From positions 1 to 43,387 of the forward strand of contig JAFSAP010000012.1 in NCBI GenBank assembly GCA_017440925.1: a DNA stretch of 43,387 bases. The letters run 5' to 3'. The first letter of the stretch is position 1, and each line of letters begins with the position of its first letter. The stretch comes from Oscillospiraceae bacterium. GTDB taxonomy: Bacteria; Bacillota; Clostridia; Oscillospirales; Oscillospiraceae. A model generated the notes under the pieces. It did no database searches, was not told where the DNA came from, and saw only the letters and a program-made list of their open reading frames with translations. Of the stretch, positions 13,467 to 34,497 are shown piece by piece. Position numbers and translations under genes: made by a program.

Positions 13467-13472
13467 AGCAGG

Positions 13473-16085: not shown

Positions 16086-16847
16086 ATGAACATGGTTAAG
16101 ACTTTTGTAAAGAAATACTGGGTCACAGTTCTGATCTTTGCGGGACTGGTCGGCCTCTATTACTACTCCACGGAGTTCGGGAATGCCAACCCCTTCCTGT
16201 TCCCCAAGGTGTCTTCCATTGCAAAGGTCTATGAGTCGGACAAGCATCTGATGGGCCAGAACCTCTGGGCATCCTTCAAGATGATGATCCCCGCCGTGTT
16301 CCTCTCCCTGGCCATCGCCCTGTCTCTGGGAACCTTCCTGGGTCTGAACAAGAAGGCCCGTGAGGCACTGCATCCTGTGATCTACACTTTCAGCGTGGTG
16401 CCTGCCATTCTGCTGTCGCCCTTCGTTCTGCTGATGGCTCCCAACATGTTTGTGGCATCCATCATTCTGATCGTTTACAGCACCGTGTGGGCAACCCTGT
16501 TTGCCACCATCACCGGCATCCAGACCATCGACAAGAGCTATCTGGACAAGGCAGCGACCCTGGAACTGAAGGGCTTTGAAAAGTTCTTCAAGGTCATCCT
16601 ACCTGCTGCCAGCCCCTCCATCCTGGCGGGCTTCGTCAACTCTCTGCGCAATACCTTCATTATGCTGGTTTATGCAGAGATGTACGGCGCACAGTACGGC
16701 ATGGGCTATTATGTCAAAAAGTTCGCAGACTTTGGCATGTATAACAAGGTCTGGCTGGGCTTCGTATTCATGGTCATCGTCATGGTTATCGTGATGCAGC
16801 TGTTTGAGAAGCTGAAGGACCGCCTGCTGAAGTGGACCATCAACTAA
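16086..16847 (+). CDS. ABC transporter permease, SsuC/NitT-type
   Basis: 253 residues from ATG 16086, with GAGGAG at 16073-16078. About six membrane helices. The coupling loop DKAATLELKGFEKFFKVILPAASPSILAG is the EAA-type motif of sulfonate/taurine/nitrate permeases. It completes an ATPase / binding protein / permease set read in that order and is followed by a strong terminator. It probably works as a homodimer, since no second permease is present. Confidence 0.92.
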   Translation: MNMVKTFVKKYWVTVLIFAGLVGLYYYSTEFGNANPFLFPKVSSIAKVYESDKHLMGQNLWASFKMMIPAVFLSLAIALSLGTFLGLNKKAREALHPVIYTFSVVPAILLSPFVLLMAPNMFVASIILIVYSTVWATLFATITGIQTIDKSYLDKAATLELKGFEKFFKVILPAASPSILAGFVNSLRNTFIMLVYAEMYGAQYGMGYYVKKFADFGMYNKVWLGFVFMVIVMVIVMQLFEKLKDRLLKWTIN

Positions 16848-16863
16848 GGAAAAAGAATTGTGG

Positions 16864-16909
16864 ATACCCCCTGATGCGGCTTTACGCTGCATCAGGGGGT
16901 ATTATTTAT
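16864..16909 (+). terminator. Terminator after the rhodanese-ABC operon
   Basis: A 14-bp perfect stem ATACCCCCTGATGC (16864-16877) pairs with 16889-16902, followed by a T-rich TATTTAT stretch. Confidence 0.9.
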
Positions 16910-16952
16910 CAGGAAAATAAGTGACGGGTAAAAGTTTATTATATTTCCGAAT

Positions 16953-16981
16953 TTGTGTCGAAGATGGTAGTATGGTATGAT
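16953..16981 (+). promoter_or_regulatory. Promoter of the double-cubane reductase operon
   Basis: TTGTGT (16953-16958), 17-bp spacer, TATGAT (16976-16981). The gene starts 58 bp downstream, with AGGAGG before ATG 17040. Confidence 0.6.
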
Positions 16982-17039
16982 TTTATACGGAAGAATATTC
17001 CGGATGTGACAAATCCAAGATTACAGGAGGAATTCAATT

Positions 17040-18314: not shown

Positions 18315-18579
18315 TCCGGATCTTCGGTGGTATATCCTCTTTGCCAATTATGAGCAAGGGCTTGCTCTGCGGGATCTGCTGCTGAAATTTGACGTAAAGA
18401 ACCGGATCGCTCCGGCACCCCGGGCTATTCAGGGAGAACTGAGCTGCGGCATGAGTCTGCTGATCGAGGATGCAGATATCGAGTCTGCACTGACCTGCAT
18501 TGTGCAGAACAGGGGAGAGTACCACAGCATTGTCCCTCTTGCCGGGCAGATGCGTTCCCATCGGGATAAATACTGCTGA
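18307..18579 (+). CDS. DUF3343 small Se/S-carrier-like protein
   Basis: 90 residues from ATG 18307, which overlaps the reductase stop by 8 bp. An upstream in-frame extension lies inside the reductase gene. It matches the DUF3343 pattern: a strand-helix start (LRWYILFANYEQGLALRDLL), a central GELSCGMSLLI with Cys47, and AL motifs after it. A further Cys64 and a C-terminal Cys90 (DKYC end) are present. The family is annotated as a putative Se/S carrier. Pairing with a double-cubane reductase is a recurrent arrangement, suggesting it delivers or receives sulfur or selenium, or matures the enzyme. Confidence 0.88.
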   Translation: MVNPDLRWYILFANYEQGLALRDLLLKFDVKNRIAPAPRAIQGELSCGMSLLIEDADIESALTCIVQNRGEYHSIVPLAGQMRSHRDKYC

Positions 18580-18595
18580 AAGCAGACATAAAAGG

Positions 18596-18635
18596 AAACA
18601 GCCGGAGGATGGCATGATCCTCCGGCTGTTTTTAT
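18596..18635 (+). terminator. Terminator after the DUF3343 gene
   Basis: A 15-bp perfect stem (18596-18610 with 18617-18631, core GCCGGAGGAT) with a 6-nt loop and an overlapping T run. Confidence 0.92.
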
Positions 18636-18796
18636 GATATGCTTATGCGTTGCTTTGGTATCTTCATCATCCGCTTTTTGTTTTTGACAGAGTGATAGAT
18701 TTTTGGAGGAAGATGGTGTATAGTATATTAAATATATAAGAAGCGGCATGTTTTTGAAAGGCGTAGACATTGTGGTTGAAAGCAGGTGTTATTGTG

Positions 18797-19600
18797 ATGG
18801 AAGCAAGTGTTGCGATTCTCGGCACACGTGGTTCTGTGCCGGTCAGTGGAGAGGCGTATTTGCGATATGGCGGTGCCACAACCTGTGTATTTCTCAGGTT
18901 TGGAGATCAGGTTGTTGTTTTGGATTGCGGCACCGGTATGTTGGAGCTGCCAAAGGTTTTACATAAGAATGACCAGCAGATTGCAGTGCTGCTGTCCCAT
19001 CCTCATGTGGATCATTTGCTGGGAATTCCCATGTGTCCGGTGGTATTTGATCCGGAGAAGAAAATCGACATTTACGGTGCCGTCTGGAATGGATTGGACG
19101 TTCGGCAGCAGGTGTGTGCCTTCTTGGCACCGCCTTTGTGGCCTGTGGGTCCGGATCGTTTCCCGGCAGAAATCTCCTTTCATGATCTGCCGGACACATT
19201 CTGTTTGGGGAATGTGACTGTAGAAAGTATGAATGGGGTTCATCCCGGTGGTGTGTCGCTATTCCGGCTGACTGGCGGCGGAAAAACCGTTGTATTTATG
19301 ACAGACTGTACGGTGACGGCAGAAAACATTCCTGTGCTGGCGGAGTTTGCCCGGGATTGCGACCTGCTGTTGTGCGACGGACAGTACAGCCAGCAGGAGT
19401 GGAAGGGAAGAGAACACTTTGGCCACAGCACCTGGAGAGCTGCGGCGCAGCTTGGCACAGCCTGCGGCGCCAGAATGGTGCGGGTCATCCACCATGATCC
19501 GGCCCGGACAGATGTTCAGTTGGACAGTGCAGCCCGGGAACTGACGAAACTCCACAAAAACTGTGCATTTGCACGGGCGGGGGAAGAGATCCTTCTGTAA
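18797..19600 (+). CDS. Metallo-beta-lactamase-fold hydrolase, candidate cyclic-nucleotide phosphodiesterase
   Basis: 267 residues from ATG 18797 (AGGTG ~8 nt upstream; an upstream in-frame start at 18770 is possible). The N-terminus ILGTRGSVPVSG and YGGATTCV are typical of an RNase Z-like MBL subgroup. The metal motif SHPHVDH gives H68, H70, D72 and H73, with further ligands likely in GVHPGG, MTDCT and VIHHD. MBL-fold enzymes include the class II cyclic-nucleotide phosphodiesterases, and this gene lies 14 bp upstream of a nucleotide cyclase in the same operon. A role in degrading the cyclase product is a reasonable hypothesis, not shown. It opens an eight-gene run ending at 30572. Confidence 0.85.
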   Translation: MEASVAILGTRGSVPVSGEAYLRYGGATTCVFLRFGDQVVVLDCGTGMLELPKVLHKNDQQIAVLLSHPHVDHLLGIPMCPVVFDPEKKIDIYGAVWNGLDVRQQVCAFLAPPLWPVGPDRFPAEISFHDLPDTFCLGNVTVESMNGVHPGGVSLFRLTGGGKTVVFMTDCTVTAENIPVLAEFARDCDLLLCDGQYSQQEWKGREHFGHSTWRAAAQLGTACGARMVRVIHHDPARTDVQLDSAARELTKLHKNCAFARAGEEILL

Positions 19601-19614
19601 AGGAGCGGTGAACA

Positions 19615-21408
19615 ATGAAAGAGAGAATGGTAAAAGGAATTCGGCTTCTGGCGGTTGTGGCCCTCACCTTTTTTCTGTGCTACTCCCAGTGCCTGTATTC
19701 TTTTGACAAAATGATCACAGACCAGATCTATCAGGCACCTTCTGTTACCAACAGCGCCATTAAGATCATTGCCATTGACGAACGAACCATACAGACCTAT
19801 GGGGATATCAGCACCTGGAGCCGGGAGATCCCGGCACAGCTGGTGGAAAAGCTGAATGCAGATCCGGAGAATGCCCCTGCCGTCATTGGTTTTGACGTGA
19901 TGTATGTCACAGAAAAGGAAGCAGAGGGAGATGAACGTTTTGCCAGAGCCTGCGCGGCGGCAGGCAATGTGGTCACGGCAGTCAACATTGTAATGGAGGA
20001 TAAACTGTCCCTGCAGGACGATGGCAGTCTCTCCGTGGATAATATGCATGTAAAGCTGGTGGAGTATCCCTATGCTTCCTTGAAGGAAGTGGCGGATTAT
20101 GGCTTTGCCAATACCACCCAGGACAGGGACGGATATATTCGCTTCGGCCTGTGGCATATGGAAACAGGAGAAGAAGAGATCCTTTCCCTTTCTGCCCGGG
20201 TGTATCAGCGCTACTGTGAGAAGCTGGGAATGACCGTCCAGCAGCCGAAGCTGGTTTCCGGGAATGCCTTTGGGTTCACTTTCTCCGGCAAGAGCGGCGG
20301 TTATGAAGTGATCTCCCTTTGCGATGTGCTGGATGGAAAGATCGACAGCCGGGTATTCCGCGGCAGCATTGTGCTGGTGGGTGCTTATGCCCCGGGAATG
20401 CAGGACAGCTACAATGTGGCAGTCCAGCGGGGGCAGCAGATGTACGGCGTGGAGATCCATGCCAACATCATTGAAGCGATGCTGGAAGAAAAGACATTTA
20501 TACCGGTATCTCCGATGGGATATGCCCTTGCAGTCAGTCTGATCGCAGCCGTGTTTTTGCTGATTGCCAGAAAAATCAAACCCATTCCCCTGACGGCGGT
20601 CCTGCTGGGCGTGATTGGTTTGAATGTGCTGGCAGGCAAGCTGCTGTACAGCCGTGGGTATTCCGTTGGTATGGCGGAGCTTCCGCTGGTGCTGATTCTG
20701 ATCTATCTGTATCAGGTGATAGCAGGGTATCTGCGAGAAGTGATGAAGCGGCGCAAGGTCATGGATGCTTTCAAAAAATATGTGGCGCCCCAGGTTGTGG
20801 AGGAAATCTCCAGGAAGGGCGATTTTCAAATGATTCTGGGCGGCGAGAACCGCCATATCGCTGTACTGTTTGTGGATATCCGGGGATTTACGCCCATGTC
20901 TGAAAGCCTGCAGCCGGAGCAGGTAGTCGAGATATTGAATGAATATCTGACACTGACGACCACTGCCATTTTTAAAAACGGCGGAACACTGGATAAATTT
21001 ATCGGGGATGCCACCATGGCAGTGTTCAATGCCCCCTTTGACCTGGATGATTATATATACCGGGCAGTCTGTACGGCATTGGACATTGCCTCCGGCAGTG
21101 ATGCATTGGAAAAGAAACTGATGGCCCGGTTTGGCAAAAGTGTCAGCTTCGGTATCGGTGTCAACTGTGGCCCGGCTGTTGTGGGCAACATTGGCTGCGA
21201 CTTCCGGATGGACTATACCGCCATTGGTGATACTGTCAACACAGCAGCCCGGCTGGAAAGCAATGCCAAGCGGGGACAGATCCTCATCAGCAGCGATGTC
21301 TATGAGGCTGTGAAAGACCGGATCGAGGCATCGGAAATTGGTGTGATACCGCTGAAAGGCAAAAAAGATGGTGCACTGGTGTATGAGGTGCATGGACTGA
21401 ACGTATAA
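19615..21408 (+). CDS. CHASE2-domain class III adenylate/guanylate cyclase
   Basis: 597 residues. N-terminal membrane helix (~8-25), extracytoplasmic CHASE2 sensor (~30-295, with IIAIDERTI and IGFDVMYV), three membrane helices (~300-372), short linker, then a complete class III catalytic domain (~412-590). Metal aspartates D421 (LFVDIRGFT) and D465 ([10 protein letters not shown]), substrate lysine K461, and transition-state N542 and R546 in VNTAARLE are all present. It should make cAMP or cGMP; the DYTAIGD stretch favours ATP, but specificity cannot be read with certainty. AGGAG precedes ATG 19615. The downstream FecR lipoprotein is a common partner of CHASE2 cyclases and may be an outside ligand or modulator. 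Confidence 0.93.
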
Positions 21409-21454
21409 GGGATGTATTTCTGGTGCCAGCGTCTGGCAAAACAGGAGGCTTTTT

Positions 21455-22645
21455 ATGAAGAAAAGAAGTTTAATTACATGGATTTTGGGATTTGTCATGC
21501 TGCTCTGCCTGTGGGGCTGCTCTTCGAAGCAGGAGGAGAACCACCGTATGATCCAGGTGCTGGAGTTGTCCGGCAGTGTGATTGTGGATAGAGCGGATTA
21601 TGGCCCTATGGATGCATACGCAGGTATGCGGCTGCAGTCTGGAGACACCATTTCCGTGAAGGCGGAAAGCTGGCTGAAACTGCAGATGGATGAGGATAAA
21701 TTTGCCCTGGTGGAGCCGGATTCCCGGCTGCGGCTGGAAGCTGCAGGCAGCAGTGCAGACAGCAAGACTGTCATTCATCTGGAATCCGGTGCCATCACCA
21801 GCCGGCTGGATGAAAAACTGAGCGAAAACTCTGCCTATGAAGTCAGTACGCCCAATTCCACCATGGCTGTCAGAGGTACGGTGTTCCGGGTAGCGGTAAC
21901 AGTGGATGAAAACGGCGTATCGCTTTCCGGTGTCAGTGTGTATGGTGGTGCAGTGGCTTCCCGGCTGATCCAGCCGGATGGCACTGTGGATGATGTGCAG
22001 GATGGTGTAATGATCCACAGTGGTACAGGTGTGCAGATTCGCGGAGATGACACCCTCAGTGAATATATGGAAACCGGGAAAGAACTGGATCTGACAGAAC
22101 TGAAGCAGCAGACCCTGGCATTTTTGCGGGATGCGCAGGCTGGAGGACGGGATCTCGGAATCACCGGAGAAGAGCTGGATAAAGCAGTTGAAGAACTGGA
22201 AGATGCGCTGAACCAGACAGAACCAGCAGTTACAGAGGCGACAGAGGGAGCCGAGGCTACAGAAACCACAGAAGCTACAGAAGCCACAGAAGCCACAGAG
22301 GAGACAGAGGAAGCAACAGAGCCGACCAAGCCCAAAAAGAAGAGACCGGAAAACTATTTTTATGTTCCCCCTGCAGCTCCGCCGGCAACATCTGCTCCTG
22401 AAGAACCGTCCACAGCCCCTTCCACGGAACCTTCTACGGAACCTTCCACGGAACCTTCCACGGAACCTTCTACGGAACCTTCCACGGAACCTTCCACGGA
22501 ACCTTCTACGGAACCTTCTACGGAACCTTCTACGGAACCTTCCACGGAACCCTCTACGGCCCCTTCTACGGAACCTCCTGCGGATTCAGCTACAGAAACG
22601 ACTGAGGAAAGCACTCCAGAACCTACGGCAGAGTCAATGGGATGA
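21455..22645 (+). CDS. FecR-domain lipoprotein with PSTE tandem-repeat tail
   Basis: 396 residues. Lipoprotein signal ends LWGC. A FecR-like domain covers residues ~35-190 ([37 protein letters not shown]). An acidic helical segment (~205-250) follows, then a Thr/Glu-rich low-complexity stretch, a basic KPKKKRP patch and 14 PST[E/A] units (22406-22573). The tail probably spans or decorates the cell wall. In Gram-negatives FecR relays signals across the periplasm. In Bacillota FecR lipoproteins next to CHASE2 cyclases are of unknown function; a role as extracellular input to the cyclase is inferred from adjacency. Confidence 0.88.
22406..22573 (+). repeat. 12-bp tandem repeat encoding PSTE
   Basis: Fourteen uninterrupted 12-bp units, mostly CCTTCCACGGAA or CCTTCTACGGAA. 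Units 1 and 13 end in GCC (PSTA). The two unit types alternate irregularly, as expected after slippage or unequal exchange. Copy number is likely to vary between strains and changes tail length in steps of four residues without a frameshift. Confidence 0.95.
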
Positions 22646-22711
22646 TTTGAAAACAGCAGGAAATCTGTTTTTGCTTTTGTACATCAGAAAAAGATCAGAA
22701 AGGAGTATCTG

Positions 22712-23794
22712 ATGCGAAGAACAGCGATATTGATCGGTATGGTTTTGCTGATGATGGGATCATTATGCGGCTGTGGGCAGAAGATACAACAGCCGGCTTC
22801 CACAATGGTCTCCCGGGAAACCATCGTGGAGGAGAGCAATGCTTTGCCGGTACAGGCTGCACATTTCAGCGGCATGGAACGGTATCGGGATCCGGTGGAT
22901 TATTCCGATCCGGATCACTGGCTGTCTCTGCCGGAAACCGCCCAGAAGGATGTGGATGTGATCTTCCTGTATCCAACCGTCTATGGAACCATGACAGAGG
23001 CGGCAGAGGATATGGCCTACATCGATGACATGTCCATGCGGATTGGTGCGGCATTGACTGCGGCCACCCAGGCCAGCGTCTTTGCGGAAAGCTGCAACCT
23101 TTTCATTCCCTATTACCGGCAGTTTACGGTGGAAGCCCTGCTGGAAATGGATGAACAGTATCCCCAACTGCTGGAATACTGTGTTTCCCAGGATATTTAC
23201 CGGATGCTGGACTACTATTTTAAATACGAAAACCAGGGCCGGCCCTTTATTCTGGCAGGCCATTCCCAGGGTTCCCTGTGGCTCACGCTTGTGCTGGAGG
23301 ACTATATGGCGGACCATCCGGAATACTTACAAAAGATGGTGGCGGCCTATGTCATCGGCTACAGCGTGACAGAGGAATACCTGGCGCGCAATCCCCATCT
23401 GAAATTTGCAGAAGGGGCTGACGATGTCGGCGTCATCATTTCCTACAATACAGAAGGCCCCGGGAACAAAGACCAGTTTAACTGTGTCGTGCGGGAGAAT
23501 GCCGTTTCCATTAACCCCATCAACTGGAAGCGGGATGATACCTACGCTTCTGCGGCAGAAAATCTGGGTTCTCTGAATGCCGAGGGCGGGCTTGGGCCCG
23601 GCACAGCCGATGCCAGGATCGATCCGGAACGGGGTGTGGTGATCTGCGAAAGCATAGACGCTGTGCCGGAATTGCAGGCAGCTATGGCGGATTACTTTGG
23701 TCCGGAAAGCTTCCATTTGCAGGACTACAGCCTGTATTACGGAAATTTACAGAAAAATGTTGCGGACAGAATTGCCGCGTTTGAAAGGAAGTAA
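22712..23794 (+). CDS. DUF3089 alpha/beta-hydrolase lipoprotein
   Basis: 360 residues. Signal peptide ends LCGC (lipidated Cys21). A DUF3089 domain covers ~residues 65-355: VDVIFLYPTVYG, then nucleophile elbow AGHSQGS with Ser185 as likely catalytic serine. The C-terminal histidine (SFHLQDY) completes a plausible triad. DUF3089 proteins are predicted serine esterases or lipases, here outside the membrane. It sits in the operon 66 bp after the FecR gene and 7 bp before the acyltransferase, which suggests acting on an acylated product made or exported by the next genes. AAAGGAG precedes the ATG. Confidence 0.87.
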   Translation: MRRTAILIGMVLLMMGSLCGCGQKIQQPASTMVSRETIVEESNALPVQAAHFSGMERYRDPVDYSDPDHWLSLPETAQKDVDVIFLYPTVYGTMTEAAEDMAYIDDMSMRIGAALTAATQASVFAESCNLFIPYYRQFTVEALLEMDEQYPQLLEYCVSQDIYRMLDYYFKYENQGRPFILAGHSQGSLWLTLVLEDYMADHPEYLQKMVAAYVIGYSVTEEYLARNPHLKFAEGADDVGVIISYNTEGPGNKDQFNCVVRENAVSINPINWKRDDTYASAAENLGSLNAEGGLGPGTADARIDPERGVVICESIDAVPELQAAMADYFGPESFHLQDYSLYYGNLQKNVADRIAAFERK

Positions 23795-23801
23795 GATCAC
23801 G

Positions 23802-25016
23802 TTGAAACCCAACCGCATTAAGCTGATGGCGGAACGCTTTTTTCTGTTCGACCCCAGCATTTACATGAATGTTATTTTTACCATTGATGGCATCGTTCCT
23901 GAGGAGAGCCTCCGGGGAGCCATCGAAAAGACCTTTACCCAGAATCAGACCACCATGTCCAAGGCTGTGCTGGATGAAAAGGGTAACCTCTATCTGGAGG
24001 AAATGGGACGCACCGGCTGCTGTGTCTTTGTGGACAGCAGAGACTGGCAGGAGATCCGCCGGGAGCAGGAGCGGATTCCCTTCCGTATCAATGAAGGCGA
24101 ATTTCTCCGGGCCTTTATCACCCCCAGAGAAAATTGTACCGACGTTTATCTGATGGCCCACCACATGATGGCAGATGGTTCCGGCCTGCTGATTCTGGTG
24201 GATGACATCATGAACAACCTGGCAGGCTTTGAAGTGGCTTACAAGCCTACAGAGGTTATGCAGCGCAGAGATGTGATCCGCAAGGGTGATCTGCCGTTTA
24301 TGTCCCGGTTCCGGCTGCGGCTGCTGAACGGACTGTGGGCCAAGGAAAAGCGGATCTTTACCTGGGAGGATTACTATCAGATCCACGAGACTTACTGGAA
24401 GGACAAGAGCACCTATTTTGAATTCACCACCATGGAAGCGGAAGAAGTGGCTGCGCTGAAGCAGGAATGCAAGGAACTGGGTATCACTGTCAACAGCTAT
24501 CTGGTGGCCAAGATCATGGAAAAATATCCGGATGACCATGTTTTGGGCGTACCCGTCAGCCTCCGGGGGAAAAGCAGCAGCATTTCCAATATGATCACCA
24601 GTCTGATGCTGGAATACCAGTATGACAAGGATAAATCTATGAAGGAAAATGCCCTCCGGGCCCATCAGATCATCCGGGAAGGTCTGGCCAGCGAGCCGAT
24701 GCGGTATCATATCCCCCAGTTTGTGGCCATTCTGGACCCAACTCTGATGGATGCGGCAGTGGCTCATTTTGTCCTGGGTTTTGAAAACGAAGCAGCCAGA
24801 AAGGCTTCTTATGTCATTGGTTATACCAGCAAGCTGGGAACCGATGTGGGCATTACCAACCTGGGCGTTCTGGATGTGAAAACCCAGTACGGCGGTTACC
24901 GGATCACCAACATGATCGGCATTCCGCCCCAAGTCTCTGCCACCAGACGGGTCGTCAGCATTTATACCTATAACGGAAAAATGACCATTACGGATACAAA
25001 GGTAAAGAAAATCTGA
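23802..25016 (+). CDS. Condensation-domain-like acyltransferase
   Basis: 404 residues if started at TTG 23802, which has AAGGAAG about 10 nt upstream and clears the previous stop. ATG 23826 is an alternative, and a longer frame overlapping DUF3089 is rejected. The active-site motif HHMMADG (residues 120-126) matches HHxxxDG of NRPS condensation, PapA and wax-ester synthase-like acyltransferases. Length fits one stand-alone condensation domain. No carrier protein or adenylation domain is fused, so acyl-CoA is a likely donor; the acyl-AMP ligase at 28965 could supply it. Product unknown. Confidence 0.82.
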   Translation: MKPNRIKLMAERFFLFDPSIYMNVIFTIDGIVPEESLRGAIEKTFTQNQTTMSKAVLDEKGNLYLEEMGRTGCCVFVDSRDWQEIRREQERIPFRINEGEFLRAFITPRENCTDVYLMAHHMMADGSGLLILVDDIMNNLAGFEVAYKPTEVMQRRDVIRKGDLPFMSRFRLRLLNGLWAKEKRIFTWEDYYQIHETYWKDKSTYFEFTTMEAEEVAALKQECKELGITVNSYLVAKIMEKYPDDHVLGVPVSLRGKSSSISNMITSLMLEYQYDKDKSMKENALRAHQIIREGLASEPMRYHIPQFVAILDPTLMDAAVAHFVLGFENEAARKASYVIGYTSKLGTDVGITNLGVLDVKTQYGGYRITNMIGIPPQVSATRRVVSIYTYNGKMTITDTKVKKI

Positions 25017-25046
25017 TCCCTTGTGTCCTTCCTATGAGGTATCCCT

Positions 25047-26267
25047 ATGAATCAAAGAGTAAATTATACACAGGTGGTCTGGGAAATTACCCGGCAGCTG
25101 CAGGAATCGGAATCCCTGGAAAAAGCCCTGCGGATCAGCCTGGGCACCGTCGTTCGGGCAGTGGGCGCGGAAGCGGGTACCATCTGGTTTTACGATAAAG
25201 ATGGCGATGGACGGATCCACCCATCCTTCTGGATCGGCGGCGCTGACCTGACGGGCCTGAGTCTGGCAGCCGGAGAGGGCATTGCGGGCAGTGTGGTGGA
25301 GACCGGCAAGACCACCGTAGTCAGGGACTGCCAGTCGGATCCCCGGTGGGCAGGGCGCTTTGATGCAAAAACCGGCTTCGTTACCCGAAGCATGGTCTGT
25401 GTACCCTTGCTGAACAAATACGAGACCATCGGCTGCATTCAGATCATCAACAAGCTGGATGGATCCCTGTATAATGATGCCGACGTAGAGCTGTGTGAAA
25501 ACCTTGCCATGCTGACCGCCATCGCAGTGGACGGCAACGGCTTGAATCTGGGGTTCAGCCAGGAGAAACCCACCCTGATTTCCTTGAAAAATGTTACAAA
25601 GACCTTTGGCACCGGCGAGATGCAGGTGCAGGTTTTGAAAGGGATCAATCTGGATGTCCGGGAAGGAGAATTCCTGGTGATCCTGGGTGAATCCGGTTGT
25701 GGCAAATCTACCATGCTGAACATCATCGGCGGTATGGACCAGCCCACCTCCGGCAACGTGATTTTTGACGGCAAGGATTATGCTTCTGCCACAGAAGAGG
25801 AACTGACGGCGTTCCGCCGTAAATCCGTGGGCTTTGTTTTTCAGGCCTATAATCTGATGCCAACATTGACGGCAGAGGAGAATTTGGATTTTATTGGCGA
25901 ACTGGCAGAAACGTCCATGACTGCCGCAGAGGCGTTGGCTTCTGTGGGGCTGCTGGAAAAGCGGAGCAATTATCCCGGCCAGCTGTCCGGCGGCCAGCAA
26001 CAGCGGGTCTCCATTGCCCGGGCACTGGTGAAGCGGCCCAGGTTGATTTTGGCGGACGAGCCTACCGCAGCTCTGGACTACGAAACCAGCATCGAGGTGC
26101 TGTCTGTTCTGGAAAATGTCATCAAGGCCGGCACTACCTTACTGATGGTGACCCATAACGAAGAGATCGCCAAAATGGCAAACCGGGTGATTCGCATGAA
26201 AGGCGGCGTGGTATCTGAAGTGGTCTTTAACCACCATCCTGCCAGTGCCAGGGAGTTGGTTTGGTAA
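25047..26267 (+). CDS. GAF-domain / MacB-type ABC ATPase fusion
   Basis: 406 residues. N-terminal GAF domain (~15-165: [50 protein letters not shown]). After a short linker comes a LolD/MacB-type ATPase (~176-400) with Walker [10 protein letters not shown] (214-222), [17 protein letters not shown], signature LSGGQQQR (313-320) and Walker [16 protein letters not shown] domains bind small ligands, often cyclic nucleotides. Fusion to an export-type ATPase would let a ligand gate transport. With a nucleotide cyclase in the same operon, cAMP or cGMP gating is an attractive hypothesis. The stop shares one base with the next ATG (26267). Confidence 0.9.
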
Positions 26268-28951
26268 TGAAAAAAACACAGCGTACCCATTTGTACCGGA
26301 CCATCCGGAAAAATCTGATCTCCTTTTTGGCGGTCGCCATGATGGCAGCCACGGCCATTGCTATTTTTGTAGGAGATCAGTCTGCAGCCAAGGCGATTCT
26401 GGATGAAGCCAATCGCTACTTCATAGAAAACCGGCTTCAAAGCCTGGAAATCTCCAGTCCCTACGGAATCACCCGGGAGGATATTGCGGCGATGTCTGCC
26501 TGGGAGGGCGTGGATGCGGCGGAGGGCGGCTACTCTGCCATGGTTCTGGCGGAGCTGGGAGGCGGTACCGGCAAGACGTTGGTGGAAGCCCATGCGCTGC
26601 TGGACACCATGAACCTTCCGGTGATTCTGGCGGGCCGGCTGCCTTCTGCCATCGACGAAGTGGCGCTGGAGCAGACCATGGCGGAAAAGGAAGACCTCCA
26701 GGTAGGCGATCAGTTCCGCATTACCCATGAGGGCCAGCTAAAGTCTCACGCCGTCACGGTTACCGCCATCATCAACCAGCCCGCCTACTGCTATGCCCGG
26801 CCCAGAGATGCCAGAGGTCAGAGCGACATCGGTATCGGCTCTGCCTACTATTACATGGCCTTTGCGAAAGAGGCCTTTGACGAAGATTATTTTAACGGTG
26901 CCTATTCCACCGCCTATGTGCGAAAGGATGCCCTGGATCAATATCACTATTTTTCTGAGGAGTACAAGGCAGAAGAAGCTGCTTTTCAGCGGCAGATCGA
27001 GGCCCTCGGTTCAGAGCGTGCCCGGCTTCGTTATGAAGCGGTTCGGGAAGCGGTGCCGGAGCAGCTGAGCAAAGCCCGGCAGGAGCTGGACAGGCAGGAG
27101 CAGAATCTGGCAGGGGGAAAAGAGACGCTGTCTGTTCTGCTGCAGCTGATGGGCTATTCCGGAGATCTGGAAAAAGACTGGGAGTCGCTTCCTGGGGACA
27201 GCCAATATCAGGACCTTTTGCGGGAGGCGAAAGCCGCCTTTGAAACCGGCGAGCTTGCCCTGGCCCAAGGGCGGGATGCTCTGGAAGCAGCGGAAGAAAC
27301 CGCTGGTGAGCTGGCTTATTACGACTGGATCGTCTCTCCCCGGCAGGATATCGGTGATGTGCGAAGCATCGGCATTGCAGTGGAGGGCCTTTACGGTCTG
27401 AGTTATTCCATGGCCATCATTTTTGTCATTGTGGCCATTACGGTGTGCTATGCTGCCATCTCCCGGATGATCAGCGAAAGCAGTGCCCTGATGGGCATGC
27501 AGAAGGCCCTGGGCTTTACCACCAAAGAGATTCGCAATCACTTTCTGGCCTACAGCATCCTCTGCGGCATCTGGGGCGCACTGGAAGGCTGGGTCTGCGG
27601 CTATTTGGTGGTTCAGTTCATGAATGTGAAGATCTACCAGACCCTGTTTTTGATGGGGGATATTCCTCTGGCCTTTGCCTGGGATTCTGCTATTTTGGTT
27701 TCGGTGTTTTTTGTGGGCATTTTCGTTGTGTCCGCCTGGGCTGCCTGCAGCAGGAAGTCCCAGATGGCTGCCACAGAGCTTCTCCGGGGAGAAACGGCCA
27801 AACGGAACCGGAAATTCTGGTTTGAAAGCTGGAAGCCCTACCAAAACCTGCGGCTGTACAGCAAGTCCATGATCAAGAATGCCCTGGCGGACAAGTCCCG
27901 GATGCTGACCACGGTCATGGGTGTGGCGGGGTGTGCAACGCTGCTGGTGATCAGCTTTACGCTGCTTCTAACCATGCGGGAATCGGAGAAAATCCCCTTT
28001 GAAGAATACTTCCTCTATGAAAACCGCCTGGTGGTGGACGGCACCAGAACCGACGGCACCGATTTTGAAGCGGTGCTGGAAGAGATGGACATTCCCTATG
28101 CCCGGGTTCTGGACAAGCTGAGGCTCTGCCGTCCAACAGACGGCGAATGGTCCGGCGGCCATATTGTGGCAGTATCCGATGGGGAAGCGCTGAAAGACTT
28201 CATGGTGCTGGAAGATCCCAAAACCCGGGAAATTCTGGACATTCCTGAGGAAGGTGCGCTGGTGTCCATCCGTTGTGCGGAGACCTTTGGTCTGGAAGCG
28301 GGCTCGGAACTGGAGATTATGGGCGCGGATGGAAGCCCCAGAAGGATTCGGGTGGCAGGCATTGTGGAGCATTATCTGGCTTACAATCTGTTTGTGGTTT
28401 CGGACAGCTATTATGAATCGGTCTTTGGAGAAACGGCACATGAGAGCGTATTCCTGATGAAAGGCAGCATTGACGGCCTGTATGAAGCGGTGAAGGATCT
28501 GGACGGTTTCCTGTCTATCCGGGATAACAGCGAATTTGTAGGGATAGGCGATGTGCTGAACATCATCGTCATTGTTTGCTTCGTCTTTGCGGCCCTGATG
28601 GCAGTAATGGTGATGCTGAACCAGAATGTGATGTACATCGAGGAAAAAGCCAAAGAGCTGTCTGTCATGCGGATCAATGGCTTTACTCTGAAGGAAACCC
28701 GTGCCTTTGTGTCCCGGGACAATTATGTTCTGACAGCCCTGGGCATTGTGGCCGGCTGGATCCTGGGGATGCTCCTGGGCTACCAGGTGCTGCTGATCCT
28801 GGAGGTGGGCGTGAACCACTATATCCGGACACCCAGCTGGAAAGCCTGCCTCATTGCAGGGGCCATCTGCGGCATCTTTGCCTGGGCGATGAATAAGCTG
28901 GCTGTGCGCAGAATTGGGAAGCTGAATCTGACCAATGTGAACGCAAATTAA
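26267..28951 (+). CDS. FtsX-like ABC permease with coiled-coil ectodomain
   Basis: 894 residues from ATG 26267 (TAATG overlap with the ATPase). Architecture: one membrane helix (~15-35), a large extracytoplasmic domain whose distal part (~225-350) is rich in E/R/Q/L heptads and likely coiled coil. Then three helices (~383-500, FtsX core), a second anchor (~540-575), a second ectodomain and a C-terminal FtsX helix set ending near 885. This is the duplicated FtsX/MacB-like layout used for lipoprotein, lipid or peptide export and for mechanotransmission. It pairs with the GAF-ATPase. Cargo unknown; the acyltransferase, ligase and hydrolase in the operon point to a lipid or acylated molecule. Confidence 0.88.
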   Translation: MKKTQRTHLYRTIRKNLISFLAVAMMAATAIAIFVGDQSAAKAILDEANRYFIENRLQSLEISSPYGITREDIAAMSAWEGVDAAEGGYSAMVLAELGGGTGKTLVEAHALLDTMNLPVILAGRLPSAIDEVALEQTMAEKEDLQVGDQFRITHEGQLKSHAVTVTAIINQPAYCYARPRDARGQSDIGIGSAYYYMAFAKEAFDEDYFNGAYSTAYVRKDALDQYHYFSEEYKAEEAAFQRQIEALGSERARLRYEAVREAVPEQLSKARQELDRQEQNLAGGKETLSVLLQLMGYSGDLEKDWESLPGDSQYQDLLREAKAAFETGELALAQGRDALEAAEETAGELAYYDWIVSPRQDIGDVRSIGIAVEGLYGLSYSMAIIFVIVAITVCYAAISRMISESSALMGMQKALGFTTKEIRNHFLAYSILCGIWGALEGWVCGYLVVQFMNVKIYQTLFLMGDIPLAFAWDSAILVSVFFVGIFVVSAWAACSRKSQMAATELLRGETAKRNRKFWFESWKPYQNLRLYSKSMIKNALADKSRMLTTVMGVAGCATLLVISFTLLLTMRESEKIPFEEYFLYENRLVVDGTRTDGTDFEAVLEEMDIPYARVLDKLRLCRPTDGEWSGGHIVAVSDGEALKDFMVLEDPKTREILDIPEEGALVSIRCAETFGLEAGSELEIMGADGSPRRIRVAGIVEHYLAYNLFVVSDSYYESVFGETAHESVFLMKGSIDGLYEAVKDLDGFLSIRDNSEFVGIGDVLNIIVIVCFVFAALMAVMVMLNQNVMYIEEKAKELSVMRINGFTLKETRAFVSRDNYVLTALGIVAGWILGMLLGYQVLLILEVGVNHYIRTPSWKACLIAGAICGIFAWAMNKLAVRRIGKLNLTNVNAN

Positions 28952-28964
28952 GGGGAATAGAGAA

Positions 28965-30572
28965 ATGACGGAGATGACCATTTCCCGGCATCTGGAGCAG
29001 ATGGCGGAGAAATACAAAACCAAAACAGCGCTGCGGTTTCCTGCGGAAAATCTGGCGTTGGATTATCATTCTTTGAAGTTGCATGCCGACCAGACCGCAA
29101 AAGCCCTGCTGGGCATCGGACTGAAAAAGGGCGATCACATCGGCATCTGGAGTCTGAATTCCTCCCGATGGGTGATGCTGGCCATGGGTGCAGCTCAAAT
29201 CGGTGTGGCGTTTGTGCCCATCAATGCTGCTTATAAGAGCGAAGAGTTGACCTATATGGTCCAGAAAATGGACATAAACTGCTTGTTTGTTATGGACAGC
29301 ATTCGGGGAAAGCCCTGCCTGGACAGACTGGAAGGCTTCTGGCAGAACGGAAAACTGGATAACTGGAAATTCCCCGGCCTGCGGAAGGTTTATGCCCTGT
29401 CGGAGAACCCACTGGGTGACTTGAAGGGCTGGGAGCATTTCCTGAGCCAGGGAGAAGCTGTGACGGATGCACAGCTGTCTCAGGCTAAGGCTCAGGTCAC
29501 AAGCAGGGATATTTACAGCATTCAGGCCACATCCGGCACTACAGCAATGCCAAAGGGTGCCCAGCTTTACCAGTATGGTGTGCTCTATACGGCAAGCTGT
29601 TACGCAAAGCTGCTGCATTTGGAGGAAGAGGACATCAGCTGCGTACCGCTGCCGCTGTTCCATTGCTTTGGCAATGTTCTGACCTTACTGGGCGGCCTTC
29701 TCTCCGGCAGCACTACAGTTTATATGGAGTCATTCTCAGCCAGTGAAATGCTGAAATTTCTGGCCGAGGAAAAGTGTACCTGTGTTTTGGGTGTGCCCAC
29801 CATGTTCACAGCCATGATGGCCCAGCCGAATTTCGATCCGTCCAAATACACCATCAAGAAAGCCGGAATGGGTGGCTCCTACGCACCGCCTGCGCTGGCA
29901 CAGGCCATTATGGAGAATTTCCATTGCCCGGGTTTGGTGGTGGGCTATGGCCTGTCAGAGGCTGCATCCCTGGTGACGCTTTCCGATATTGAGGCACCGG
30001 TGGAAAACCGTCTGCGCACAGTGGGCAAGCCGTTGCCGGATTTTGAGGTATCCCTCTACGATTCGGCAACGGGCAGAACCGGCAAAGATTTGCCCCAGGG
30101 CGAGATCGTCTGCCGGGGAGAGGGGCTGATGCACAGCTATTACAACGACCCGGAAGAAACTGCAAAAGCGTTGGATCGTGACGGCTGGCTGCATACCGGC
30201 GACCTGGGCAGCTTTGATGACAGCGGCTATCTTTGCGTGGTGGGCCGGATCAAGGACATCATTGTCCGGGGCGGCGAAAATATCTCTCCCTCCCAGATCG
30301 AAGCGCTGCTGCTGGAGCGGGAGGAAGTGCAGGATGTCCAGTGTGTAGGTGTTCCCGATTGTATCCTTGGTGAGGAGATCGCAGCTTTTATTATTCTGAA
30401 AGAAGGCTGCACCATGACGGAGAACCAGGTGAAAGAGTATGTGGGTGCGCACCTTGCAAGATACAAGGTTCCGAAGTACGTATTTTTTACCGATAGATTC
30501 CCAATAAATGCAGCGGGCAAAGTCTTGAAACGGGATCTGAGCAAGTTGGCTGCCGAAATGATTCGAAAATGA
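28965..30572 (+). CDS. AMP-forming acyl-CoA synthetase / acyl-AMP ligase
   Basis: 535 residues, full-length ANL-superfamily enzyme. P-loop TSGTTAMPKGAQ (~residues 186-197), GYGLSEAASLV, HTGDLGSFDDSGYLCVVGRIKD, GGENISPSQIE, and the C-terminal catalytic lysine in NAAGKVLKRDL. It should activate a fatty or aromatic acid as acyl-AMP and transfer it to CoA. It is the last gene of the operon, 13 bp after the permease, and is followed by a 17-bp terminator stem. It may feed the condensation-like acyltransferase. Confidence 0.9.
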   Translation: MTEMTISRHLEQMAEKYKTKTALRFPAENLALDYHSLKLHADQTAKALLGIGLKKGDHIGIWSLNSSRWVMLAMGAAQIGVAFVPINAAYKSEELTYMVQKMDINCLFVMDSIRGKPCLDRLEGFWQNGKLDNWKFPGLRKVYALSENPLGDLKGWEHFLSQGEAVTDAQLSQAKAQVTSRDIYSIQATSGTTAMPKGAQLYQYGVLYTASCYAKLLHLEEEDISCVPLPLFHCFGNVLTLLGGLLSGSTTVYMESFSASEMLKFLAEEKCTCVLGVPTMFTAMMAQPNFDPSKYTIKKAGMGGSYAPPALAQAIMENFHCPGLVVGYGLSEAASLVTLSDIEAPVENRLRTVGKPLPDFEVSLYDSATGRTGKDLPQGEIVCRGEGLMHSYYNDPEETAKALDRDGWLHTGDLGSFDDSGYLCVVGRIKDIIVRGGENISPSQIEALLLEREEVQDVQCVGVPDCILGEEIAAFIILKEGCTMTENQVKEYVGAHLARYKVPKYVFFTDRFPINAAGKVLKRDLSKLAAEMIRK

Positions 30573-30573
30573 G

Positions 30574-30615
30574 AAAATCACCTGCCGGAGTAATAGGCTC
30601 CGGCAGGTGATTTTT
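30574..30615 (+). terminator. Strong terminator closing the cyclase-acyltransferase operon
   Basis: A 17-bp perfect stem (30574-30590 with 30598-30614, core CACCTGCCGGAG) with a 7-nt loop and a terminal T run. It begins 1 bp after the ligase stop. Confidence 0.95.
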
Positions 30616-30793
30616 GTAATTTGATTCCACTTTTTTAACATTTTAAACGTATCCGCAGCTGCTGACCGGAAACGGCAGAAACAGGGGATGTGCATGCAGC
30701 CTCTGTTTATCTCTAAAAAATCAGGACAATTTGAAATATTACGGCAAATGGAAGACAGTGACAGAAACAAACAAGAATACTTTTCTGCTTCTA

Positions 30794-30822
30794 TTGACAA
30801 AGAAACCCAAAAAAACTATACT
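30794..30822 (+). promoter_or_regulatory. Promoter of the TIR-propeller gene
   Basis: TTGACA (30794-30799), exactly 17 bp, TATACT (30817-30822). It is a near-consensus SigA promoter 42 bp before ATG 30865. It falls inside an upstream in-frame extension of the next gene, which supports the later start. The rest of 30616-30793 shows nothing else recognisable. Confidence 0.85.
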
Positions 30823-30864
30823 ATTCTTAAGGAAATCACCCAAAAATTTTTACGGAGTGAGCCT

Positions 30865-33606
30865 ATGGACAAGAGAAAGAATTACCGGGAATATAAAGCC
30901 TTTATCTCTTACCGGCATTTGTCGCCGGATAAGGAGATCGCAAAAGCGCTGCAGTTTTTGCTGGAGCATAATCTGTACAGGCCGGATAAGACAGTGGACC
31001 GCAGGATCTTTCCTGTTTTCCTGGATACATCTGAGCTGCCCAACATGGAAGATCTGGATCAGGGCATCCTGGATGCGCTGGATCATTCTGAATGCCTGTT
31101 TGTGATCTGCTCCCCCAATCTTCCGCTCTCAAAGTACTGCATGCGCGAGATTCAGTACTTCAAAGAGCGGCATGGCGGTTCAACGAGCCGGATCTATACG
31201 GTGCTGGTGGACGGCACACCGGAAACCTCCTTCCCCCAGATCCTGCGTACCAGAACAACCCGCTGGGTGGGCGAAGACGGCAAGGAATACCAGCAGGAAG
31301 TGGATACAGAACCGCTGTTTTCCGATGTTCGCGGAAAAAATCTGCTGCATTCCCTGCTGAAGCTGTCGGGCAAAGAGTATATCCGGCTGGCTGCTGCCTA
31401 TTACCGATGCAGCTTTGACCAGCTGTATAAGCGGCAGCTGCGGTGGAGAATCCTGTCGCTGATCACTGTGGCTGTTCTGACGATTTTGCTCTGCTTCGGC
31501 ATCTATAGCTATACAAATCAAATGGAAGCGGATGCTTTGGCGATGGAAGCCGAACAGATCCTCCAGGAAGATGACCCGCTTCTGGCAATGACCTTGTGCA
31601 CCCGGATGGATCCAAGGTGGTCTGAACGCTATGCCACAGCCCTTCGCAGTGCGGTGGTGCAGCATCATTATGACCGGAATGCAGTTCCGCTGGCGGCTTC
31701 CCGGCTCAGCAGCTATTTGCACTCGAATGCTATGGGACGGTATCTCAGCGAAGCCGGAGACCAGATCATCATTGACAATGGACAAGTGATGCAGATCACA
31801 GATGCTGCAACCGGAGAGATCCACATCCGGGAGGCCCGGGATACATTGTTCGTCAATGGCAATCCGCCTGCAAGCTATCTGATCCTGCGCTCTCACGAGA
31901 ACGAGCAGGGGGTTATGATGGACTATGTGTCGCTGATGAGCCTGGCAGACAACAGCCTGATTACCGAATTCTCCTATCGGGAATCGTCACGGGAATACAC
32001 CGATTATGAACTTGTCAGGGCCATAGAAACAGACAAGCTGCTGGCGGTGTTCGATGGGGAAGAGGCGGTTGCGTTCCTGAACAGCGACGGCATTCAGCTG
32101 ACAAAAGACGAGTATGTCCGGCAGGGTCTTGCGTATATCGATGAGCCGATAGAAGACGAGGGGCCTTACCGGCTGGTGCGCAAGGGCAGAAAGTATGCTG
32201 TAAAGAATGCCCAGGATGAGGTGGTTCTGGATATCGGCAGAAATCTGGTCAGTTCCGCTTTTTCGGATGACTGGAAGCTTTTTGCCTGGATCGGTGACGA
32301 AACGATCCATGTTTATGACACCTCGGACTTTCACCAGCTTGCAGAATCCCACTGCCCGGAAGAGGCGGTAGACCGCATTCAGCTGCTGCAGGGCTCCAGT
32401 TATTATGTGGGCTTTGCGATGCAGGATGGAGAAGAAATTTCCACAGTTTTGGATTGGAACACCGGAAAGCGTCTGATGACGCTGGAGGGCTACCCCCTGT
32501 ACAGCACAGCAGAAGAAGCTTTCTTCGTTCTGCGGGACGGAGATCTGATCCGCTATGATTATGAGAATCTGGATATTGCAGGAAAAGCGGAGGTGACAGC
32601 CCATGCCGGCCAGCGCTGCCTGCTGACAGGTGATGGCTGGATCGCTTTGATGGATACCGAACAGGGTACCCCTTTGCTGGAGATCCCAACCGGATATCCG
32701 GAACAGGCAGCCTTTGACGCAGAACTGAACCGGCTTCTGGTTCGGACAGAAGGTGCGCTGTGCTGCTATGCAGGCAGTGCAGACCCGGCATGGTCCATAG
32801 CGGCAGAGCCCTTGTGCCTGGCAATGGCAGAGGATGGCAAGCATGCGGCATGGCTGGATACGGAAGGAAATGTCCATCTGCTGAATGCGGCAGATGGAAC
32901 GGAAAAAGCAGTGATACCTGCATCTGCACTGGCAGAAGCCGGGACCGTGCACCAGCTGGCAGTCTCTGCGGAGGGCCTTTGCGCAGTGGGTGAAAAGGAA
33001 GTCCTTTGGATCCCGGAAAGCGGCAGCAGCATGCACCTGGGACAGTATGCCGCTGTCCGGCTGTTTTCTGACGGCGTTCTGGTGCTGGAGGACGCAGATG
33101 CCAGGATCCGGGACTTCCGGATGTATGATACCAAGTCTGGAACGGTTCTTTACGAGCCGGAAACCAATACAGGAAACTGGGCCTATTCACCCGAGAGCGG
33201 ATACCTCCTGCGGCACGTGGAGGAAAGCGGAAACATACCCTCGCTGCAGATCGAGATCATGAAGCGCAAAAACAAAACATTTGCGCCAGTTGACCAGATC
33301 CAGCTGACACAGAACTGGGTGGAATCCCTGCACATAGATACCACAGGGCAATGGCTGAGCATCGTGTCCGGCGGACGAACCATGGTGTACCATCTGAAAG
33401 GGATGGAAAAGTGGCTGGATGCAGATGGCTCTGTGTATTATGAAGCAGGAAAGCTGTATGGCAGCACAGCTTACGGAAAACGGTTGTACAGCATTCCGGC
33501 GGCAGATACGGAGTATCTTGTGACGTATGCCCGGGAAGCACTGACAGGCGGCTGGGGTATGCGGAGCCTGTCAGAAGCGGAAGAAGAACTGTATATCATT
33601 CAGTAA
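30865..33606 (+). CDS. TIR domain / transmembrane / beta-propeller-like protein
   Basis: 913 residues from ATG 30865 (GGAG 7 nt upstream). Residues ~9-130 are a TIR domain: YKAFISYRH, RIFPVFLDTSELPN, CLFVICSPNLPLSKYCMREI. The last matches the SxWCxxE pattern of TIR NADases, making Glu95 the likely catalytic residue. A helical segment with YIRLAAAYY precedes one membrane helix (196-216). The remaining ~690 residues are repetitive beta-strand-rich sequence resembling a degenerate WD40/PQQ propeller. Topology suggests TIR inside, propeller outside. Such TIR-TM-propeller proteins occur in Clostridia without known function; they could sense an outside signal and deplete or modify NAD+. No Thoeris ThsA-type partner is adjacent. 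Confidence 0.88.
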   Translation: MDKRKNYREYKAFISYRHLSPDKEIAKALQFLLEHNLYRPDKTVDRRIFPVFLDTSELPNMEDLDQGILDALDHSECLFVICSPNLPLSKYCMREIQYFKERHGGSTSRIYTVLVDGTPETSFPQILRTRTTRWVGEDGKEYQQEVDTEPLFSDVRGKNLLHSLLKLSGKEYIRLAAAYYRCSFDQLYKRQLRWRILSLITVAVLTILLCFGIYSYTNQMEADALAMEAEQILQEDDPLLAMTLCTRMDPRWSERYATALRSAVVQHHYDRNAVPLAASRLSSYLHSNAMGRYLSEAGDQIIIDNGQVMQITDAATGEIHIREARDTLFVNGNPPASYLILRSHENEQGVMMDYVSLMSLADNSLITEFSYRESSREYTDYELVRAIETDKLLAVFDGEEAVAFLNSDGIQLTKDEYVRQGLAYIDEPIEDEGPYRLVRKGRKYAVKNAQDEVVLDIGRNLVSSAFSDDWKLFAWIGDETIHVYDTSDFHQLAESHCPEEAVDRIQLLQGSSYYVGFAMQDGEEISTVLDWNTGKRLMTLEGYPLYSTAEEAFFVLRDGDLIRYDYENLDIAGKAEVTAHAGQRCLLTGDGWIALMDTEQGTPLLEIPTGYPEQAAFDAELNRLLVRTEGALCCYAGSADPAWSIAAEPLCLAMAEDGKHAAWLDTEGNVHLLNAADGTEKAVIPASALAEAGTVHQLAVSAEGLCAVGEKEVLWIPESGSSMHLGQYAAVRLFSDGVLVLEDADARIRDFRMYDTKSGTVLYEPETNTGNWAYSPESGYLLRHVEESGNIPSLQIEIMKRKNKTFAPVDQIQLTQNWVESLHIDTTGQWLSIVSGGRTMVYHLKGMEKWLDADGSVYYEAGKLYGSTAYGKRLYSIPAADTEYLVTYAREALTGGWGMRSLSEAEEELYIIQ

Positions 33607-33628
33607 TTAACGATAAGGAGAGAGAAAC

Positions 33629-34486: not shown

Positions 34487-34497
34487 TACTAATTCTT

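Follow-up and report, generated by a model that had tools for sequence, protein, structure and literature searches.

The 43,387-nucleotide stretch analysed here (hereafter, the window), from contig JAFSAP010000012.1 of the Oscillospiraceae bacterium assembly GCA_017440925.1, contains an eight-gene operon (positions 18797–30572) in which a cyclic-nucleotide signalling module with a CHASE2 cyclase and a FecR lipoprotein is joined to genes for acyl transfer and for an ATP-binding cassette (ABC) exporter. The unusual part of the operon is gene 6, a fusion of a GAF domain with an ABC ATPase, together with the adjoining FtsX permease (gene 7). From sequence comparison, we consider it reasonably likely that the receptor of the signalling module is fused to the exporter ATPase, whereby cyclic AMP (cAMP) would gate the exporter, with an acylated compound as the presumed cargo.

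In the mechanism that we propose, the FecR lipoprotein and the CHASE2 ectodomain would sense something at the cell surface, the cyclase would make cAMP (as its catalytic motifs and nearest structures suggest), and the product of gene 1, a metallo-β-lactamase (MBL)-fold enzyme, would remove it (as suggested by its family and by its exchange with another enzyme of phosphodiesterase type). Binding of cAMP to the GAF domain of gene 6 would switch the GAF-ABC/FtsX complex. The remaining steps are the weakest: the ligase (gene 8) might charge an acyl group that the acyltransferase (AT, gene 5) places on an acceptor, the exporter might move the acylated product or a partner of that product, and the DUF3089 lipoprotein esterase (gene 4) might trim or recycle the product outside the cell. 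An earlier interpretation made from the DNA letters alone (the sequence-only reading) had likewise proposed that CHASE2 and FecR control the synthesis of a cyclic nucleotide, which the exporter GAF domain then reads; this part is supported by the kinship of the domain, by its place in the receptor slot and by recurrence of the arrangement in three other loci (L187, L200 and L203), whereas the exporter cargo and the processing by DUF3089 proposed in the same reading are conjectural.

The GAF domain of gene 6 as the candidate receptor

Among the 24 solved structures matched by the gene 6 GAF domain at E ≤ 0.01, 19 are chains of cyclic-nucleotide phosphodiesterases or cyclases. The best match was 5w10 (E = 3.7 × 10−18), followed by PDE2A, PDE10A (2zmf) and the adenylate cyclase 1ykd. 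The segment D..TG..T, which we take to be ligand-contacting in PDE2A, is present in gene 6 as DAKTGFVT; it is found in all five cyclase-linked GAF-ABC proteins vs. one of four others (G708 has it; L177, L178 and G647 do not), and in 51 of the 53 GAF-HD proteins of 80 cyclase loci. Other GAF domains also match 1ykd, namely those of a GAF-HD protein in L181 (E = 8 × 10−16) and of a second GAF-ABC protein in L203 (E = 5 × 10−12). For the GAF-ABC of L178, the best match of the GAF domain reached just 1.3 × 10−3.

To compare the surroundings of CHASE2 cyclases, 100 loci were assembled: 20 from a sample of the class, 80 from a scan and the operon itself, with one locus (L124) dropped for want of a cyclase match. 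The scan compared an alignment of seven cyclases with 84,980 species, and the best 80 of 366 relatives, mostly from metagenome-assembled genomes (MAGs) of Lachnospiraceae, were examined. Candidate receptors beside these cyclases include GAF-HD-GYP proteins, GAF-GGDEF proteins (fused to an MBL domain in L117 and L118) and proteins with a cyclic-nucleotide-binding (CNB) domain. Such a candidate lies within 8 kb of the cyclase in 84 of the 96 loci without a GAF-ABC gene vs. none of the four loci with one, i.e. this operon, L187, L200 and L203 (Fisher p = 5 × 10−4, not corrected for kinship), and the counts (84 and 12) did not change when a match was required to cover the sensor part of the query. 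Because of the kinship of the GAF domain, this replacement in the receptor slot and the recurrent linkage to cyclases, we infer that the GAF domain of gene 6 would be the cAMP receptor of the module.

The CHASE2 cyclase, the FecR lipoprotein and the probable off-switch

Gene 2 matches both PF05226 (CHASE2, 141.7 bits) and PF00211 (Guanylate_cyc, 91.8 bits) and is the sole PF00211 match in the source genome, which is 68% complete. Its nearest structures are adenylate cyclases, and the metal-binding Asp pair and the transition-state Asn and Arg are present. In class III cyclases, the residues Lys461 and Thr535 determine selectivity for adenine; both are invariant across 19 aligned cyclases, and cAMP is the predicted product. 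CHASE2 domains were detected in 19 of the 391 genomes of the class sample (the source genome included). Of the 80 scanned loci, 75 allowed a same-strand run to be drawn around the cyclase (the other 5 were dropped), and 59 of these runs include a FecR gene. In gene 3, a 12-bp repeat (13.9 copies, 22418–22584) codes for the STEP repeats of the tail, perhaps a wall-spanning spacer. A Sinorhizobium CyaD1 construct without CHASE2 is reported to produce cAMP constitutively (PMC5498481).

Two further arrangements were observed around such cyclases. Phosphatases combining CNB and SpoIIE domains accompany the cyclase in L254 (8811–13936) and L113 (5289–6488); the cyclase run of L254 also includes HATPase, STAS and GGDEF genes, suggestive of a cAMP-driven partner switch. 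Shortly upstream of the cyclase operon in L213 (2258–7461) and L224 are genes for AT-like, HD, DUF6320 and alpha/beta hydrolase proteins (Pfam search on L213 only).

Gene 1 scores 63.1 bits against PF12706 (cut-off 27) and also matches PF00753, and its motif SHPHVDH conforms to [T/S]HXHXDH. Of 15 cyclase-linked MBL proteins, 12 have this motif and all have HxHxDH. The structure 6kns, which is named YhfI (PMC9293780), is the second-best solved relative of gene 1 (E = 5.5 × 10−7); the same source defines the atypical class-II cyclic-nucleotide phosphodiesterases (Rv1339/YhfI/CpdA) by PF12706 together with [T/S]HXHXDH. Gene 1 reaches 51 bits against the model NF041851 (curated score 400) and 64 bits, slightly more, against RNase Z models, again far below the cut-offs. 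The MBL hydrolase named in the sequence-only reading is present, and its role is better described as that of a probable cAMP phosphodiesterase belonging to the module, one that would work like class-II enzymes without being filed under NF041851.

When partners within 6 kb of the cyclase and on the same strand were counted, an MBL gene was found in 15 of the 100 loci, an AP_endonuc_2 TIM barrel gene in 67, both in none and neither in 18 (Fisher p = 4 × 10−9, not corrected for kinship). On a cyclase tree of 99 rows, built quickly and carrying long-branch warnings, the MBL label requires 5 changes, at least 4 of which are forced by supported branches; a sign test of the exchange had only 4 independent pairs, too few to reach 0.05. 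Because the two never occur together beside a cyclase (0 of 100), we read them as alternative phosphodiesterases, with this operon using the MBL enzyme. Three TIM barrel proteins were scanned; the nearest models were CbiR or endonuclease IV, all below curated cut-offs, and sugar epimerases scored lower, close behind for one of the three. Nine positions of E. coli Nfo, which we take to be the ligands of its three zinc ions, were checked in 66 full-length TIM proteins, whereby six positions are conserved in 66 of 66 and three in 65 of 66 (one unknown residue). That the TIM barrel superfamily can hold new phosphodiesterases is illustrated by CbiR (PMC7733943). These observations suggest that the TIM barrel protein of L200 (14260–15093), along with those of 66 other cyclase loci, is a candidate for a new class of cyclic-nucleotide phosphodiesterases; no description of a TIM barrel in this role was found among the literature matches listed.

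Fusions involving both enzyme types were also encountered. MBL-GAF-GGDEF fusions adjoin CHASE2 cyclases in L117 (11378–13093) and L118 (178–1887), and neighbours of similar length are found in L119–L121 (Pfam was run on L117 and L118 only); one such polypeptide may link cyclic-nucleotide breakdown to the synthesis of cyclic di-GMP. In L048, the gene at 11797–14328, directly after a DUF3089 gene, encodes a fusion of an AP_endonuc_2 TIM barrel with an AMP-forming ligase.

Layout and integrity of the operon

The eight open reading frames are all on the + strand, are open and contain no internal stops (Table 1); the gaps between them measure 14, 46, 66, 7, 30, −1 and 13 bp, and the ATG of gene 7 at 26267 overlaps the stop codon of gene 6 by one base. 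The two longest hairpins within 16500–34600 are those at the ends of the operon; both were listed on the minus strand, in our reading because the T run of the + strand was counted into the stem. On the + strand of the interior, five weak hairpins (5–7 pairs each) and no strong terminators were found. When both strands of the full 18 kb are counted, promoter-like sites are no more frequent than chance predicts (15 vs. 12.7 ± 3.3 in shuffled sequences) and terminator-like sites are in excess (28 vs. 15.9 ± 4.6), so that weak internal attenuation may occur. The head-to-tail run with gaps of 66 bp or less, the strong terminator at its end and the eight protein families, all described in the sequence-only reading, are borne out, the Condensation match of gene 5 being below the Pfam cut-off; internal signals that could split the run, considered in the same reading, come down to the weak hairpins just mentioned. 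Thus, the eight genes are a real operon, with co-transcription predicted.

Table 1 Features of the operon and its boundaries
Feature	Coordinates	Strand	Evidence
Hairpin before the operon, terminator-like repeat	18596–18631	.	15 pairs, minus-strand listing
Gene 1, hydrolase with MBL fold, probably an atypical cyclic-nucleotide phosphodiesterase of class II	18797–19600	+	PF12706, SHPHVDH
Gene 2, CHASE2 class III cyclase, predicted adenylate cyclase	19615–21408	+	PF05226, PF00211
Gene 3, FecR-domain lipoprotein with long (STEP)n tail	21455–22645	+	PF04773 (34.8 bits), lipobox-like start
Gene 4, lipoprotein with a DUF3089 alpha/beta hydrolase domain, probably an esterase (lipolytic family XV)	22712–23794	+	PF11288, GHSQG
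Gene 5, AT of the PapA5/condensation superfamily, HHMMADG	23802–25016	+	TTG start proposed
Gene 6, GAF domain fused to LolD/MacB-like ABC ATPase	25047–26267	+	PF13185/PF01590 and PF00005
Gene 7, FtsX-type permease, two FtsX domains, large extracytoplasmic parts	26267–28951	+	PF02687 (two stretches), hydropathy
Gene 8, AMP-forming acyl-CoA ligase	28965–30572	+	PF00501 and PF13193, core motifs
Hairpin closing the operon, terminator-like	30574–30614	.	17 pairs, minus-strand listing

In genes 1, 2, 4, 5, 6 and 8, every motif that was checked is intact, and G+C content is 0.50–0.56 over 18001–34500. An assembly accident was ruled out: four of the genes recur in unchanged order, close to a cyclase and a FecR gene, in another MAG (L187), and the PtsI flank is conserved. 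Beyond the terminator (30688–34486) are genes for a TIR-domain protein (972 amino acids, one transmembrane segment) and a 285-amino-acid protein with no Pfam match. The left flank (17040–18314) is a gene resembling the D component of 2-hydroxyglutaryl-CoA dehydratase (HGD-D); genes of this kind are found in five places in the source genome vs. one among the other 40 genomes of the genus searched.

Occurrence of the operon and its parts

Within the genus, the cyclase was found in 1 of 41 genomes and, within the family, the AT in 1 of 200, in both cases the source genome itself, and a housekeeping operon of the genus was rejected. The right-flank PtsI has counterparts of 85–88% identity in three other members of the genus, and a contaminant contig was rejected for this flank; the left-flank HGD-D gene, with a counterpart in one other genome (36%), is uninformative on contig origin. 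The cassette is absent from the PtsI neighbourhood in the four members of the genus that were fetched. We take the operon to be, probably, an accessory, acquired element; searches of viral and plasmid sequences gave no match.

GAF-ABC fusions look rare: apart from the source genome, they were found in at least 2 of 380 class-sample genomes and in at least 2 of 119 genomes of another family (lower bounds, with 7 and 24 candidates per genome scored). All four of these outside matches (L177, L178, G708 and G647) have an adjoining FtsX partner, and no acyl genes of the cassette were present in the stretches fetched. The L177 stretch reaches the contig edge 564 bp upstream, and a CHASE2 cyclase is encoded elsewhere in the L177 genome (G509); the genome of L178 (G311) is not among the 19 listed with CHASE2, where its own row is unlisted.

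Beside cyclases, GAF-ABC and FtsX genes occur together in 3 of the 80 scanned loci. L187, from a Coprococcus sp. MAG, has the genes for DUF3089 (60% identical), AT (48%), GAF-ABC (83%) and FtsX (57%) in the same order as here, followed by another AT (38%), an oppositely oriented gene with a weak match to AMP-binding, a cyclase, a TIM barrel and a FecR gene, and a serine recombinase; there is no counterpart of gene 8, and the TIM barrel is found where an MBL gene would be expected. The recombinase, a large one (13564–15432), lies directly past the cassette at the contig end, which hints at mobility. The FtsX proteins of this operon and L187 are sisters in a tree (99/100), as are, less firmly, the GAF-ABC proteins (85/97). 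L200 has the order TetR, GAF-ABC, cyclase, FtsX, TIM barrel, FecR; here the cyclase separates the exporter genes and overlaps both end to end, and in L203 an FtsX-GAF-ABC pair is divergent from a cyclase-FtsX-GAF-ABC-TIM-FecR-FtsX run. Co-occurrence of the eight families, on which the sequence-only reading set store, was thus matched by four genes in the same order in L187, the intact set not being found elsewhere in these partial searches. Occurrence of the second half without the cyclase and FecR, which the same reading took as refuting if routine, was seen for parts of it; the DUF3089-AT-GAF-ABC-FtsX block was found once elsewhere, near a cyclase and FecR.

The acyl genes

Gene 4 matches PF11288 (154.3 bits) and has a lipobox-like start; the DUF3089 family includes proven esterases such as Est10 from the rumen, of lipolytic family XV (PMC4431682). 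The source genome has one DUF3089 gene, and the family is represented in 25 of 391 genomes of the class (own included). Among the matches compared, the two closest relatives of gene 4 are both in cyclase loci (L187, 60%, and L184, 54%, where the gene ends the cyclase run), vs. 48% for the best other. DUF3089 as a marker of the cassette was rejected, no cassette being present in the 20 regions fetched of the 30 matches listed outside the source genome; in one of the 20, a ligase lying beyond DUF3089 turned out to be a TIM-ligase fusion.

The TTG at 23802, behind a good ribosome site, is the probable start of gene 5. Its score against Pfam Condensation is 22.0 bits (gathering score 30.6), and both His residues, the Asp and the Gly of the HHxxxDG motif are invariant in 15 aligned proteins; the AT profile A7 matches condensation domains and transferases of PapA5 type in the PDB, with a bacitracin synthase at E = 5 × 10−21 and the dimycocerosyl transferase 8s6l at E = 2 × 10−9. 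Relatives of the AT occur in 21 of 391 genomes, counting the source genome; those outside it are at most 31% identical, and the 12 regions fetched around them contain no cassette, with a weak FtsX match in L080 (19%, E = 4 × 10−9). A scan of the 84,980 species with the AT alone returned 37 stretches and no relative, and was blunt, missing the 48% identical AT of L187 in that collection. For gene 8, the nearest curated model is NF009233, with a score under its cut-off.

Alternative explanations

Several observations weigh against cAMP gating of an acyl exporter. The gene 6 GAF domain has 4mcw, an HD-GYP protein, among its seven best matches, and the GAF domain of L177, which has no D..TG..T segment, is nevertheless close to phosphodiesterase GAF domains (cGMP-specific phosphodiesterase, E = 6 × 10−13) and matches 4mcw at E = 8 × 10−16, so that GAF kinship alone is not decisive. 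The NKFDE motif, characteristic of cyclic-nucleotide-binding GAF domains, appears in gene 6 without its final Glu. The slot counts come from related genomes and cut contigs, and none of the four GAF-ABC-FtsX pairs retrieved with the GAF-ABC query is accompanied by a CHASE2 cyclase within the sequence inspected. Matches to DUF3089, AT or ligase are lacking in L200 and L203, so the exporter can be independent of these genes; no relatives of gene 8 were detected in the 80 cyclase loci at E = 10−4, and all eight families together were found in no other locus in the partial searches.

One alternative, which we regard as unlikely, is that two unrelated modules share one transcript, whereby the cAMP module acts elsewhere (e.g. 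on a single weak CNB protein) and the GAF domain of the acyl/export part senses another ligand. That GAF-ABC-FtsX and DUF3089 each occur alone in other genomes is consistent with such a split, and the source genome has a single, weak CNB-domain match (32 bits). However, GAF-ABC genes lie by a cyclase in three further genomes, in varied arrangements of which one has the cyclase between the exporter genes, the fusion takes the place of the usual receptor, and its GAF domain is of the cyclic-nucleotide type. Genes 6 and 7 combine an ABC_tran domain of the DevA/MacB/LolD group with an FtsX permease: the ATPase gives its best scores with DevA (211.3 bits, curated score 295.8), MacB (202.9, 966) and LolD (201, 307.75), all below the curated scores and above FtsE, and a related FtsX protein in L203 matches MacB_PCD (34.5 bits). 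This argues against an FtsEX-like mechanotransmitter, in which cAMP-gated ATP hydrolysis would move outer domains and thereby regulate an enzyme of the envelope, e.g. the DUF3089 esterase, a reading that we consider improbable in spite of the two FtsX domains with large outer segments, the weakness of the nearest structures (YtrF, E = 0.0046; LolC/LolE, E = 0.5–0.9) and the lack of an evident gene for a dedicated substrate. The same type of ATPase, along with the surface-type sensors FecR and CHASE2, would suit an exporter that removes an antimicrobial or envelope-damaging compound, the acyl genes modifying the envelope and cAMP merely timing a stress response; we regard this as very improbable, given that no two-component system was found among the ten proteins of 18797–34486 and that an AT gene precedes the exporter in L187 too, in the same order.

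Implications and comparison with known systems

The literature searched yielded no description of a bacterial ABC exporter under direct gating by cAMP, a weak negative, since most subscription journals are outside its coverage; nor, with few such journals covered, was a description found of GAF-ABC-FtsX with cyclic nucleotides or of CHASE2 in Lachnospiraceae. If our reading is true, CHASE2/FecR signalling would have an immediate output open to experimental testing in Lachnospiraceae and related bacteria, many of whose genomes contain the module. The slot analysis also points to the TIM barrel as a concrete candidate for a new class of cAMP phosphodiesterases. More tentatively, and rather less likely than not, the CHASE2/FecR cAMP modules of Clostridia-type bacteria might be a plug-in chassis, with an off-switch slot occupied by MBL or an endonuclease IV-fold enzyme (the new phosphodiesterase class) and a receptor slot occupied by GAF-HD-GYP, GAF-GGDEF, CNB or GAF-ABC proteins, the last of which would be part of the first cAMP-gated ABC exporter, coupled to a pathway for an acyl product.

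The first half of the operon is a known kind of module. A published cluster of Campylobacterota, spread horizontally, consists of a CHASE2 adenylate cyclase, a cAMP phosphodiesterase, FecR and a tetratricopeptide-repeat (TPR) protein (PMC9239204); the first three are clustered here too, the phosphodiesterase being predicted, whereas the receptor here would be fused to an ABC ATPase and acyl and export genes are added. Pfam detected no TPR protein among the ten proteins of 18797–34486, hence a related kind of module rather than the Campylobacterota cluster. The sequence-only reading, which knew of no described system with this composition, is to be corrected in that the first half belongs to a published kind of cluster; the complete set of eight genes was not found elsewhere in the partial searches. 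Gene 4 shares with Est10 PF11288, GHSQG and an export signal (a putative signal peptide in Est10; PMC4431682) but differs as a putative lipoprotein encoded within a signalling operon. Gene 1 resembles Rv1339/YhfI/CpdA in PF12706, in [T/S]HXHXDH and in having YhfI second among its nearest structures, and differs in its low score against NF041851. The nearest solved sequences of the gene 6 GAF domain are those of PDE2A, PDE10A, cGMP-specific phosphodiesterases and 1ykd, and D..TG..T is kept; what differs is the fusion partner, an ABC ATPase here instead of a cyclase or phosphodiesterase. In mycobacteria, PapA5 and FadD proteins are part of a lipid assembly and export system, to which the operon is similar in having an acyl ligase, a PapA5-like acyltransferase and an exporter, but it has no polyketide synthase or carrier protein and its exporter is of a different type. 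The ABC importer OpuCA has a CBS domain and is gated by cyclic di-AMP; gene 6 shares with it the fusion of a regulatory, putatively nucleotide-binding domain to an ABC ATPase, with another domain, another predicted messenger and an FtsX-type exporter rather than an importer.

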